Shown here piece by piece: positions 3,017 through 37,449 of a stretch of DNA of 41,934 nt. The position numbers and the translations under genes were made by a program. The number at the start of each line of letters is the position of its first letter. Positions within the stretch are counted from its first letter, which is position 1. Under the pieces are notes generated by a model that did no database searches, had not been told where the DNA came from, and saw nothing but the letters and a program-made list of their open reading frames with translations. The DNA is taken from IMG/VR virus record IMGVR_UViG_3300004773_000008, positions 1 through 41,934 of that record; one strand, 5' to 3'. Source of the stretch: a virus.

Positions 3017-3124
3017 TTACTGCCTTTTTAAGTCCCTTGCTAGTTTTGCGGCTACTTCCCTCATTTCGGCAGATAGGAGAACCACTTCCTCGTAGGATAG
3101 TTTCTTGAGTTTTTTAGTTTTCAT
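3017..3124 (-). CDS. Small helical protein (35 aa), translationally coupled
   Basis: This short leftward frame reads MKTKKLKKLSYEEVVLLSAE and ends DLKRQ. Its ATG shares bases with the stop of the upstream gene in a TAATG overlap, the arrangement of coupled phage genes. It is predicted to be one amphipathic helix with a very basic start. Function unknown. Confidence 0.5.
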   Translation of the reverse strand: MKTKKLKKLSYEEVVLLSAEMREVAAKLARDLKRQ

Positions 3125-3345
3125 TATTTTTTACGCTTCTTTGTTTCTGGGAGTTTTGCTGTATGCGCCCGACCATAGATCGTCATATTTGCTATTTCTT
3201 GAGGTAGGTTTTGAACATGGATCTTGAGTCTTAGAGCGAACTCTGGAGTGAGTAGTTTGATAAGGTGAGCGAACTCTTCTCCGTTGGAAGCAAGTTGTTT
3301 TGCTTGAGATAGAGTATGTAGTTGAAGATCGTCGTATGATTTCAT
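3124..3345 (-). CDS. Hypothetical small protein (73 aa)
   Basis: Not recognised. It begins MKSYDDLQLHTLSQAKQLAS and ends in a basic tail (LPETKKRKK). It is mostly helical, soluble and without Cys. It is the first gene of a leftward pair whose second gene overlaps it by TAATG, and it diverges from the candidate RNA region that starts just beyond it. No clear ribosome site. Confidence 0.55.
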   Translation of the reverse strand: MKSYDDLQLHTLSQAKQLASNGEEFAHLIKLLTPEFALRLKIHVQNLPQEIANMTIYGRAHTAKLPETKKRKK

Positions 3346-3422
3346 GTAAAGATTTTATAGATTCATCGGCACATTGGAAAGGATAAGTTCCAATATCTCG
3401 TTTTTTTAGACATAACAGAAAG

Positions 3423-3428
3423 TATAAT
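3423..3428 (+). promoter_or_regulatory. Possible -10 box before the structured RNA region
   Basis: A perfect TATAAT sits in AT-rich DNA just before the hairpin-rich region, downstream of a weak hairpin (TTGGAA/TTCCAA, 3374-3393) and a T7 run. No good -35 lies at 16-18 bp, so this is only a candidate start point for the RNA. Confidence 0.25.
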
Positions 3429-4004
3429 TGGATTTGAATTGATGTTTTGATTCCATGTTTTGTTTATATGGTACTCATGGTTCCATATTTGTTAATTGTA
3501 TCTAAATGGATGCAATTGGATCTGAGCATAAGAAGCCCACAGAGCGTAACTGGGTGCTTCTGCACTCCCTCGGCTTCAAGTATGACCTATAGAGCCTTAT
3601 CTGCTGGGTGGATTGGAGTGAGAGGGAATGGCGTTGGGGTGGGATTGCACCACGCTCTACTGCTAAAGCAAGTGTACTCACTAGAGCCAACACATATTCC
3701 TCAAATTAAGATCTGGCGGCAATTCCAGATCTCTTGACCTTCACCTGTGGCTCGACACGATCTCGGTTTCCAGAGGCTACACCAGTTGCTGTTTTCCAGT
3801 AACTGGGGCAAATATAGGATTGACTTGTGATCCTGTCAACACTACTTTCTTTCCACACCTCCTACTCTCAATTAAAGCGATCTGATCAATCGTAAACCCG
3901 ACTTGTTGGATGTTGAGAGAAAGAGGGCCTGTCATGCGGCAAGCGTGGCTGACTCCTGCTGGGATGGATAACGCTGGTTTACAGAAACTCCCAGATAGTT
4001 CAAT

Positions 4005-4071
4005 CACCGATTCGTCTAGTGGGAAGATCTCGTTCTAACGAGAGACGGAGTGTTCGATTCCTCCATCGGCT
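4005..4071 (+). other. tRNA-like structure (non-canonical or decayed tRNA)
   Basis: A 5-bp acceptor-like stem CCGAT/ATCGG (4007-4011 with 4065-4069) is followed by TC and a D-arm (4014-4028) with loop AGTGGGA, which keeps the canonical A14, G18-G19 and A21. Next is an anticodon-type stem TCTCG/CGAGA with a 6-base loop TTCTAA rather than 7. The T-arm is GGAG.G/CCTCC with one bulged T and the canonical loop TTCGATT. It has no CCA, a short acceptor and a 3-base variable region. The elbow is intact but decoding features are not, so a tRNA mimic inside the larger RNA is favoured over a working tRNA. Confidence 0.5.
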
Positions 4072-4087
4072 AATTGAGTATTTTTAG

Positions 4088-4261
4088 ACCATTCACGAGT
4101 GGTATGTCGTGTTTACCTCAAAGGCTGGGAATGAAGCGTAGCTTGATTAAAAAATACTGGGATAATCACCTATGAGGTGAGTTTATACATACAAATCTAA
4201 ACCCCGCCTGAACGATAAATAGGCGTGGTTTACCATTCACGAGTGGTGTATCGTGTTTACC
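4088..4261 (+). repeat. Pair of 30-nt direct repeats inside the structured RNA region
   Basis: 4088-4117 and 4232-4261 match at 28 of 30 bases. Both start with the hairpin ACCATTCACGAGTGGT and end TCGTGTTTACC; the two differences fall directly after the hairpin. The spacing is 144 bases. Smaller repeats nearby are GACTTATRC (4291, 4341) and CCCGATNGGGT (4362, 4403). Confidence 0.85.
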
Positions 4262-4493
4262 ACCAAGGAGTGGTGATTCTAATTCAATATGACTTATGCG
4301 GAGATTAGAGGGATTATTCTCCGCAAAACATCCAATTGATGACTTATACATCAAATATATGCCCGATTGGGTATAAAATTGAGGTATAACTCAAAGATCA
4401 TACCCGATAGGGTTTACAAAACCTTGCCATTTATGAACATTTGTGTAGAGTCTCTAATTTAGATGAAGATTCTTCTAAATAGTTCACTGCGTT

Positions 4494-5189
4494 ATGAGTG
4501 AAGTTACGACTTGCGATATTTTCATTCGCTCATATGCGAATGATTTTAATTGGCTGAAGTATTGCTTGAGGAGTTGTGATAAGTTTCTAACAGGGTTCAG
4601 GAACATTCACATTGCCATTCCAGCCTCTGACATTGGAAAATACAAGCACCACGGCAGTGAGAAGGTGCATTTGATTGAAAACTGGAGTGATGACTACCTT
4701 GGGCAGCAGAATACCAAGCTTCATGCCGATCAATATTGCGGTTCTGATTTCATTCTTCATTTGGATTCCGATTGCGTTTTCACTTCACCAACCACTCCAG
4801 AGGACTTCCTCATCAATGGGAAGGCTGTTATTCTTCACGAGGATGGCGTAGAAACGCACTGGCCCCCAATAGTTGAGAGAACCATAGGCTTTCATATGGA
4901 AAGCGAGTATATGAGGCGTTTACCGATTATCTACCCAAGGTGGATTTATGGGGAATTCAGAGAGTTTATCAGCAAAATGCATGGGATTCCATTGAAGGAG
5001 TGGATTAAAATCCAGCCATACAGGGAGTTTAGTGAGTTTAATTGCCTTGGGGCGTGGGCGTGGAAGTACGCACAGACAAGAATTGAGTGGAGATTGCCAA
5101 GTCAGATGCCAGTTAAGGCAAAACAATTCTGGAGCTGGGGGGGAATTGATGGTTGCGTGGAGGAAATTGAAAAGATCCTTGCAAGCTGA
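4494..5189 (+). CDS. GT-A type glycosyltransferase-like protein
   Basis: A 231-residue protein. A beta strand leads into DSDCVF (residues 91-96), the Asp-x-Asp metal/nucleotide-sugar motif of GT-A enzymes, preceded by YLGQQNTKLHAD (68-79). The overall pattern resembles the DUF6492-type glycosyltransferases. It would move a sugar from a nucleotide donor to an unknown acceptor in the cytoplasm, perhaps virion proteins or host surface sugars. It is the first gene after the structured RNA and stands upstream of the neck gene, so it is probably in the late operon. A second GT-A-like gene lies at 16871-17899 but does not look like a copy of this one. Confidence 0.75.
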   Translation: MSEVTTCDIFIRSYANDFNWLKYCLRSCDKFLTGFRNIHIAIPASDIGKYKHHGSEKVHLIENWSDDYLGQQNTKLHADQYCGSDFILHLDSDCVFTSPTTPEDFLINGKAVILHEDGVETHWPPIVERTIGFHMESEYMRRLPIIYPRWIYGEFREFISKMHGIPLKEWIKIQPYREFSEFNCLGAWAWKYAQTRIEWRLPSQMPVKAKQFWSWGGIDGCVEEIEKILAS

Positions 5190-18103: not shown

Positions 18104-18745
18104 ATGAAAAGATACAAGCGAGGTGATGTAAGGGAGGACGGGATGGTGTTCCGAAACTACACTGGGCGTGGAACTGAATGGTGGGTGACTCCAGGGAAGC
18201 TTGCTAAGATGCGAAATCAAAACAGTAAAGACATGGTAAAATGGAGGGGAGACAACAAAGAAATTGTTTCAGAAAGAAATAAAAAATGGCGTGATACAAA
18301 CCCGGGCAAGGCTAGGGATAACTTACGCAAATGGAGAAAAGAAAACAGAGAAAGGGATTTAGAGTCTACTAGAAACTGGAGAAAGAAAAATCCAGATAAG
18401 GTCAAGTTGATGTATGAGAATAAAAAGAAAGACATTAACAAATTTAGATTAGATGGAAGGGTTCGCAGGGCAAAGCGTAGGTCTCTTCTTCTTGATAGGC
18501 TTCATCCAGAACATGACGCAAAAATTGAGAAAGCATTAATTCTACAATCTCAGTCTTTATTTCAGTGTCTTGGTGTAAAGTTTGAAGTTGATCATATTAC
18601 TCCAATCACAAAAGGCGGCTGGCATCATCACTCAAACCTCCATGTTATCCCAATGACTCTGAATAGAAGGAAACACAATAAGGATAATTCAGTATTACCA
18701 AATTGTTGGAATTTAGAAGAAAGATGTAGATTGTTGTTGACATAA
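18104..18745 (+). CDS. HNH homing-type endonuclease
   Basis: A 213-residue protein. The C-terminus holds FEVDHITPITKGGWHHHSNLHV and MTLNRRKHNK, an HNH nuclease core (D163 H164, N178/H180, N187). The N-terminal ~110 residues are highly basic, with repeats of the KWRxxN type (KWRGDNKE, KWRDTNPGK, KWRKENRE, NWRKKNPDK) that probably bind DNA. Free-standing HNH genes cut alleles that lack them and spread by repair. It stands directly before the capsid gene with a direct-repeat region between, so it may target the capsid locus. Confidence 0.85.
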   Translation: MKRYKRGDVREDGMVFRNYTGRGTEWWVTPGKLAKMRNQNSKDMVKWRGDNKEIVSERNKKWRDTNPGKARDNLRKWRKENRERDLESTRNWRKKNPDKVKLMYENKKKDINKFRLDGRVRRAKRRSLLLDRLHPEHDAKIEKALILQSQSLFQCLGVKFEVDHITPITKGGWHHHSNLHVIPMTLNRRKHNKDNSVLPNCWNLEERCRLLLT

Positions 18746-35760: not shown

Positions 35761-37449
35761 ATGAATCTACAGACCTACGGACTAGACTTCAGTAAGTTTC
35801 CCAATATCACTCAATTAGAGATTGAGTTGCTAATGGTTGCCGACAAAGACCCATCTCGCATCACAGGGATTAGCAGGGGTCAACATATCAAGCATTGCAT
35901 TCATATGCTATGGCCCGATGTGATTAAAAGCTGGAACAACTGGAACGAGCTGGCGTTATGGGCATGGACAAACTATGACGAGATCGGGGTTACTGGATGC
36001 GCCGCCGCTGGTAAGACATTCACATTCACCCTCTTGTCCTTGGTTGAGTACCTAGCTAAACCCATGGGAACTCGTGTTGCATTAACGAGTACGACTGTTC
36101 CATCACTCAGGGGCCGTATCTGGGCTGAGATGATGAAGTTCACCAGACCTTGCGTTCCGTTATTCGGGTTGAATGTGGTGGATTCCCAAACCAAGATCCA
36201 GTTCACCAAGGGTGATGACAGGTCTGCTATAACAGCCCTTGCCGTTGATTCTGGGGCCGTAGAACAAGCCGTAGGAAAGCTACAGGGTGTTCACCTACCC
36301 AGAATGCTAATCATGGTTGACGAGGCAGCACAGACCAATCCAGCTGTATTCTCAGCAAGAGCAAACTTGGCTGTTGGTACGGACTTCTACCACTTCATCG
36401 CTATCGCTAATGCTTCCAGTATGTTTGATCCTCATGGATTATTCTGTGAACCAAAAATGGGATGGGGGAGTATCGGGGATGATGATGAACATTGGGAAAC
36501 CAAGTCAGGAGTGTGTGTAAGGTTTGATGGACTCAAGTCTCCAAATATTAAGGCTGGTCGCTTATTGTACCCATACTTGTTCGGGCAAGACAATGTGGAC
36601 ACAATCCGCAAAAACTTTGGCGAGGGTAGTCTGGAGTGGAATAGCTATTGCAGGGGGATGTGGAGCAAGTCTGGAGCTAGGAATACGATGGTGGACTCAG
36701 CTATGATTACGGAGGGGTGCGCCAGAGATAAGGTTGTATGGAAGGGAGGGGATCTAAAAACTCTTGCAGCACTTGATCCAGCATTCACCACAGAGGGTGA
36801 TGATTGCGTACTCAGATTCGCAAAGGTTGGTAAGGCTCTTGATGGAGATCTGACAATCAACCTTACGGAAATCATTAAGTTGCATTTGATGGATGATCCA
36901 AACTATCCGTTGTTTTACCAAGTGGCAGATCAGACGATTGAGTTATTGAAGAAACACAATGTCGAGCCAGAGAATTTTGCTCTTGATGCAACTGGTGCTG
37001 GTGCTGGCATTGCCGACATCATCTCTCAACGATGGCAGTCGGGGTTTGTGCGGGTGAGTTTTGGTGGAGCTGCAACAGACTCCCCAATTAGCGTGGAGGA
37101 TGATCGTCCTGCAAAGCAAGTCTATGCCAATCGTGTGACTCAGCTGTGGGGTCAAATCAAGGTGATCATCATGAGTGGAAGAATGAGGGGGCTGGATGAC
37201 CAGACTGCACGAGAGCTTTGCGCTAGAATCTATTCCCTCAAGAACGAAAGAACATTGCTGGAAAGCAAGAAGGACTTGAAGAAGCGAACAAAAGGCAGCT
37301 CCCCAGATAGAGCCGATGCACTTGCGTTGCTTACTGAACTGTTCGTCGTACAAAACGGATTCGGAGATGCCACAGGAAGTCAATCCTCAAATTCTGATGA
37401 TTGGGAAAATTTTGTTATGGACAATGAATTAGAGTCTGACTATAGGTAG
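35761..37449 (+). CDS. terL: Terminase large subunit
   Basis: A 562-residue protein with full domain order. Walker A GCAAAGKT (79-86), Walker B MLIMVDE (182-188) and a coupling segment IAIANAS give the packaging ATPase. The nuclease has ALDPAFTTEGDD (D339), FALDATGAG (D409) and SPDRADALALL (D516/D519). It cuts concatemers and pumps DNA through the portal. It is preceded by a membrane protein and followed 3 bases later by a RecB-like nuclease, so packaging and replication genes are co-transcribed. Confidence 0.95.
   Translation: MNLQTYGLDFSKFPNITQLEIELLMVADKDPSRITGISRGQHIKHCIHMLWPDVIKSWNNWNELALWAWTNYDEIGVTGCAAAGKTFTFTLLSLVEYLAKPMGTRVALTSTTVPSLRGRIWAEMMKFTRPCVPLFGLNVVDSQTKIQFTKGDDRSAITALAVDSGAVEQAVGKLQGVHLPRMLIMVDEAAQTNPAVFSARANLAVGTDFYHFIAIANASSMFDPHGLFCEPKMGWGSIGDDDEHWETKSGVCVRFDGLKSPNIKAGRLLYPYLFGQDNVDTIRKNFGEGSLEWNSYCRGMWSKSGARNTMVDSAMITEGCARDKVVWKGGDLKTLAALDPAFTTEGDDCVLRFAKVGKALDGDLTINLTEIIKLHLMDDPNYPLFYQVADQTIELLKKHNVEPENFALDATGAGAGIADIISQRWQSGFVRVSFGGAATDSPISVEDDRPAKQVYANRVTQLWGQIKVIIMSGRMRGLDDQTARELCARIYSLKNERTLLESKKDLKKRTKGSSPDRADALALLTELFVVQNGFGDATGSQSSNSDDWENFVMDNELESDYR

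Follow-up and report, generated by a model that had tools for sequence, protein, structure and literature searches.

Organization of the locus

In the window, which is the whole 41,934-base virus record analyzed here, the stretch between a minus-strand gene (3124-3345) and a plus-strand gene starting at 4494 is devoid of credible genes, as had been stated from the sequence alone; the open reading frames overlapping positions 3346-4493 gave no Pfam match. The first gene codes for a conserved 73-aa protein, with homologs in the phage records L005, L006 and L008, and is oriented leftward from a divergent promoter; the second (4494-5189) codes for a DUF6492/Stealth-like, glycosyltransferase-like product and is preceded by a promoter-like sequence (TTGCCA, 16 nt, TAGAGT; plus strand, 4424-4451). 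Between 4465 and 4503 the window contains ATGAAGATTCTTCTAAAT, a sequence similar to the opening codons of the FkbM methyltransferase gene that L005-L008 have at this site; only the start of this gene is left in the window.

Comparison of homologs divides the stretch into blocks with separate histories: block N (3527-3805), an RNA that we call M (3856-3994), a tRNA-like structure (3998-4078) and block D (4086-4430). On balance, the stretch appears to be a composite of independent noncoding elements, with the small RNA gene M at its center. The original prediction of a structured phage RNA was borne out, both by a better fold than that of shuffled sequences on either strand and by covariation within 3856-3994; the RNA at this locus is real and is new as an RNA family, while being smaller and more modular than first proposed. 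The supposed involvement of a tRNA-like sequence also proved correct; the tRNA-like structure at 3998-4078, a 37-nt direct repeat and a divergent promoter pair near 3811-3848 had gone unnoticed.

From 3440 to 4430 the plus strand folds at -317.9 kcal/mol, as compared with -274.8±6.5 for dinucleotide shuffles (z=-6.65), and the minus strand reaches z=-6.12; since the two values are nearly equal, fold energy is silent on the strand. When calculated by segment, the excess is located mostly in 4086-4430 (z -4.1/-4.5), and both M (z=-1.8) and the tRNA-like part (z=+0.1) are unremarkable; fold energy was consequently dropped as support for M. Two stems that had been taken to indicate the plus strand, CCAUU-CACG-AGUGG and GCCC-GAUU-GGGU, can indeed be read there, but their two wobbles say little about which strand is transcribed.

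Structure and conservation of M

RNA M (plus strand) was delimited by alignments, covariation, covariance-model matches and the lack of a conserved frame; no frame, on either strand of the core 3856-3994, is open across all of 15 homologs. Its fold comprises a closed three-way core, two further hairpins and many invariant unpaired bases. The core is formed by P1 (3858-3861/3923-3926 and 3865-3871/3913-3919), P2 (3878-3881/3889-3892), which carries the palindromic loop CUGAUCA, and the P3 hairpin (3896-3911); it is followed by hairpin P4 (3931-3937/3943-3949) and by P5 (3959-3964/3989-3994), which encloses GGAUAACG and P6 (3974-3976/3982-3984). The P3 of L047 contains an inserted hairpin, TGTCCCCGAAATCCGTTTCGGGAACATAC; the same element is free-standing at 2380-2400 of L119, as a small mobile hairpin would be.

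Seven IMG/VR contigs with homologous loci were recovered with a pattern based on the 37-nt repeat together with the flanking protein (4494-5189), the others with further patterns. A covariance model of M found exactly one copy per record in 18 phage records, a count that takes in the partial copies in L005, L007 and L103. Two extra copies (L134 and L135) came from a final pattern scan restricted to P4 and P5, hence outside P2, and scored 127 and 123 bits with the model. One of the search patterns included UGAUCA, so that the invariance of this motif is biased for the loci recovered in that way; the partial copies in L005 and L007 lack it.

In a MAFFT alignment of 13 distinct M sequences, made without reference to structure, 88.1% of the cells were paired, while shuffles reached 69.1% and slid versions of the structure 36-45%; double changes were counted in 92 cells, where shuffles had 33.5±4.1 and slid controls 6-18. 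Double changes occur at all seven base pairs of P4, and P6 is found as CUG/CAG, CAG/CUG, CGG/CCG, GGG/CCC and GCG/CGC. A phylogeny-aware test was then applied, home-made on the model of R-scape (substitutions reconstructed by the Fitch method on a FastTree tree and reassigned branch by branch, with an APC-corrected G statistic). It gave E<0.05 at 10 of the 38 M pairs on a hand alignment that omits a 24-nt insert in P3 of L047 and whose refinement was guided by the structure, to the advantage of the latter; the MAFFT alignment was not so guided. Inclusion of L134 and L135 raised the number of pairs with E<0.05 to 15 of 38, as compared with 1-3 in slid controls; these two sequences, which had not been used in deriving the structure, contribute further compensating changes to P1 and P2. 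The covariation of M exceeds phylogenetic expectation, which places it among structured noncoding RNA genes; such covariation in homologs was the test set by the original prediction, and it is found in 3856-3994. We are highly confident that M is a conserved RNA.

Transcription of M

A sigma70-like promoter (TTGACT, 17 nt, TACTTT; plus strand, 3820-3848) precedes M, with the -10 element ending 7 nt before it. A -35/-10 pair of this kind, with 16-17 nt spacing and lying 7-9 nt before M, was found in all 18 loci checked, while the upstream promoter regions belong to several unrelated types (TTGACT..., TTGCCA...AATAGT, TTGTCA..., TTGCAC...). The combined p of 2e-24 for this placement assumes independent loci, which these are not. 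Because the position of the promoter is fixed, M is probably a small RNA gene that stands on its own; as judged from sequence, a separate transcription unit is very likely. The transcript of M would thus depend on a sigma70-type promoter of its own and begin with, or close to, the first conserved base.

Divergent from this promoter is a second one on the minus strand (3811-3839; TTGACA, 17 nt, TATATT), with 11 of 12 consensus matches; L005, L006 and L008 have it at the same strength, and the version in L053 and L119 is near-consensus. Block N, which would be read on the minus strand if the promoter is taken as a guide, is common only to the window, L005 and L006, and 99 nt of it (3527-3625) are identical in L006; these three homologs are too few for covariation, and the G-U changes within the block are mixed as to strand. 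The strong promoter beside it makes it probable that N is a minus-strand product, a leader of the gene 3124-3345 or an RNA upstream of it. In other phages the divergent transcript would enter an element Z or, in L003, an HNH gene.

Module Z, a conserved element that contains GAACCAAAACG and GGGGGGAUCAGGGGGGU and is often oriented divergently to M, was found on the minus strand of L002 (7254), L003 (2330), L008 (1206), L103 (2200), L119 (2005) and L127 (3056). It showed no homology with block N and, in the loci scanned, no Rfam match. Related genes for HNH-type proteins are present in the window (18104-18745), L127, L003, L047 and L076 at differing places; in L003 the gene adjoins the M promoter.

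The tRNA-like structure and other 3' modules

After M lies a degenerate tRNA-like structure (plus strand, 3998-4078), which was aligned by hand with those of L127, L003, L006, L013, L125 and L076. Like tRNAs (RF00005) it has a cloverleaf, with the D-loop AGUGG and the T-loop UUCGAUU retained; unlike them, it has a 6-nt anticodon loop and no CCA, and its acceptor helix continues past position 1 as UCA/UGA(U) through a single bulge that is A, C or U depending on the phage. Three pairs reached E<0.05 in the phylogeny-aware test, where anticodon and T stem pairs covary. In the window this part gave no ARAGORN call and no match to the Rfam tRNA model, and hence does not classify as a tRNA; the L125 copy passes the model with 36.2 bits and that of L007 narrowly fails (27.7).

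A U-run (4079-4085, plus strand), which from its sequence may be the 3' end of a transcript, follows the tRNA-like helix; it is seen in the window, L002, L003 and L125, is missing in L006, L013, L127 and L076, and in the window was not flagged by a simple terminator scan. The tRNA-like structure stands 3' of M in the window, L127, L002, L003, L006, L013 and L125, and in L076 a unit of this kind is found about 120 nt from M, past a terminator-like hairpin. Other phages have different arrangements: M ends in its own P5 stem followed by UUUUU in L008 and L011, and a module X with a U-run is located 3' of M in L047, L119 and L135; in L134, X comes after another module. The M transcript would then end after an interchangeable 3' module, and that of the window would consist of M, the tRNA-like part and the U-run, about 230 nt in all; that its 3' end falls in the tRNA-like part is the likelier case. 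Since the 3' modules interchange, the tRNA-like part would most likely form and protect the 3' end rather than carry the core function.

Module X is a hairpin, GGGGCAWUGAGGGG ... UAGCGACCUGAWCCCC, with a variable inner stem and a U-run after it. It occurs at 360-440 of L007, 3041-3120 of L003 and 6849-6923 of L006, besides the sites downstream of M in L047 and L119; being 3' of M in some phages and 5' in others, it resembles a separate small RNA with a terminator. A pattern scan of the genome collection for module X gave no match.

Block D (4086-4430) is rich in hairpins and holds the 37-nt element in two direct copies (4088-4124 and 4232-4268, 89% identical), as compared with a single copy in L002-L004. 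In the window and L002-L004 the block is located 3' of M, in L127 5' of it. In L003 the last 16 nt of the tRNA-like structure (3375-3390) recur about 300 nt further on (3681-3696), bracketing block D, as if D had been inserted at the 3' end of that structure. A pseudoknot pairing CACG with CGUG is possible in the 37-nt element; it is disrupted in L127 and is not claimed. Another recurring block, GGCUGGGAAUGAAGCGUAGCUUGAUU...GGAUAAUCACC, with a possible small hairpin, varies in position and orientation (window 4124-4180; L127 2225; L119 1530; L076 4610; L103 1890-1960, reverse).

Comparison with known RNA families

At gathering thresholds, a scan of the window with Rfam 15 gave nothing; the only match at relaxed thresholds, snoR77Y (E 0.013; 28.1 bits, the cut-off being 52), was taken as chance. 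GOLLD and ROOL are phage or prophage RNAs often found near tRNA islands, and the GOLLD linker sometimes holds tRNAs (PMC12286853). The GOLLD model (RF02032) did not match the window and, among the relatives, gave only a 5.5-bit chance match elsewhere in the L002 record; the ROOL model (RF03087) matched neither the window nor the relatives, the search of the latter being without a positive-control match. Like GOLLD, M is phage-borne and structured and may have a tRNA inside or beside it, but GOLLD often exceeds 800 nt and has a conserved 3' domain, whereas M is about 140 nt long; the internal promoter at M and the reordered modules also argue against a single transcript of about 800 nt. ROOL shares with M the condition of a phage-borne structured RNA near tRNAs and differs in size and fold. 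The likeness of M to both is one of shared company and not of membership.

M resembles stand-alone phage small RNAs in general, being short, with its own promoter and a terminator-like 3' end, though its sequence and fold match no Rfam 15 family. Three BLASTN queries against named phages gave no convincing match, nor did a search of the literature covered find a matching phage RNA. In a sampled genome collection six pattern matches were obtained, among which the model retained only L128 (14.3 bits, E 0.036), which was taken as chance. There was thus no convincing match to M among the Rfam families, named phage records or bacterial genomes searched. An Rfam abiF RNA (53.9 bits) was identified in the phage contig L002 at 4291-4327, directly after a 120-aa ORF.

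Genomic neighbors and possible role of M

In most records M is near terminase genes, which belong to different families. It is downstream of TerL in L011 and L076, where this is of the T7 type, and in L127, L125, L047, L119 and L103, where it is of the type encoded by the window (TerL at 35761-37449, recognized by homology and by Walker A). In L002-L004 M is convergent with TerL, in the window, L005 and L006 it is downstream of a putative small terminase, and in L013/L014 it lies antisense between scaffold and capsid genes, near the portal gene. The M sequences of L008 and L011 share about 94% identity, the latter phage having a T7-type terminase; such near-identity across the terminase divide indicates that M moves horizontally.

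We tentatively propose a role in trans for M, that of an accessory RNA whose target is a component common to the hosts of these phages; given the nearby tRNA genes, the likeliest such component would be the translation or RNA machinery. M possibly dimerizes, with the conserved self-complementary UGAUCA loop as the point of contact. A role in cis is disfavored in several phages because the neighbors of M are convergent or unrelated. A broader version, in which M is a horizontally shared RNA that dimerizes or oligomerizes to serve unrelated packaging motors or host take-over, with the tRNA-like tail swapped in, is unlikely.

It is improbable that M is a packaging RNA like the phi29 pRNA, with the palindromic loop serving for oligomerization on the portal/terminase motor. 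The two have in common a similar size, one copy per genome, a possible kissing loop and, for M, the frequent vicinity of packaging genes (terminases in most records, scaffold and portal in L013/L014). However, M has no sequence or structure match to pRNA: the Rfam model (RF00044) found none in 18 records, while recovering the phi29 control at 145 bits. Moreover, the terminases beside M come from unrelated families, some of them of the T7 type, whose packaging motors are not known to use RNA; M is antisense between structural genes in L014, and tRNAs and other accessory elements occupy the same location.

We also consider it improbable that M is the 5' element of a decayed tRNA gene, such as a processing or ribozyme-like leader releasing the tRNA, even if a tRNA-like structure lies at a nearly constant short distance from M in most aligned loci and the L125 copy still scores as a tRNA. 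No tRNA-like part adjoins M in L047, L119 and L135, that of L076 is 120 nt off and beyond a terminator-like hairpin, and no known ribozyme family matches. A cis-acting leader for downstream genes, either a put-type antiterminator or a riboswitch, would account for the promoter directly preceding M everywhere, and yet is very improbable: the next gene is convergent in L011 and L076, M is antisense to structural genes in L013/L014, and terminator-like hairpins come after it in L008, L011, L047, L119 and L135; put-like antitermination was rejected on gene orientation. Finally, a single giant plus-strand RNA over about 3440-4485, as originally predicted, whether a distant GOLLD/ROOL member or a new class of giant RNA, is largely refuted, despite the overall z of -6.65 and the tRNAs that a GOLLD linker can carry (PMC12286853), because the blocks occur separately and in a different order between phages, M has its own apparent start, a strong divergent promoter lies inside and neither model matches the region.

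The preferred reading is then that of a small, mobile RNA acting in trans. Phage-borne structured RNAs are few, and most are without known function; M is small, has a clear predicted start and strong covariation, and its model works in very different phages, which makes it amenable to expression, deletion and pull-down. The replacement of a tRNA-like structure by plain terminators at its 3' end offers a testable case of tRNA remnants reused as RNA ends. That M is exchanged between phages whose terminases are unrelated suggests a target shared by their hosts; if M is indeed a shared, oligomerizing RNA, it would represent a portable functional RNA among phages having almost no proteins in common.
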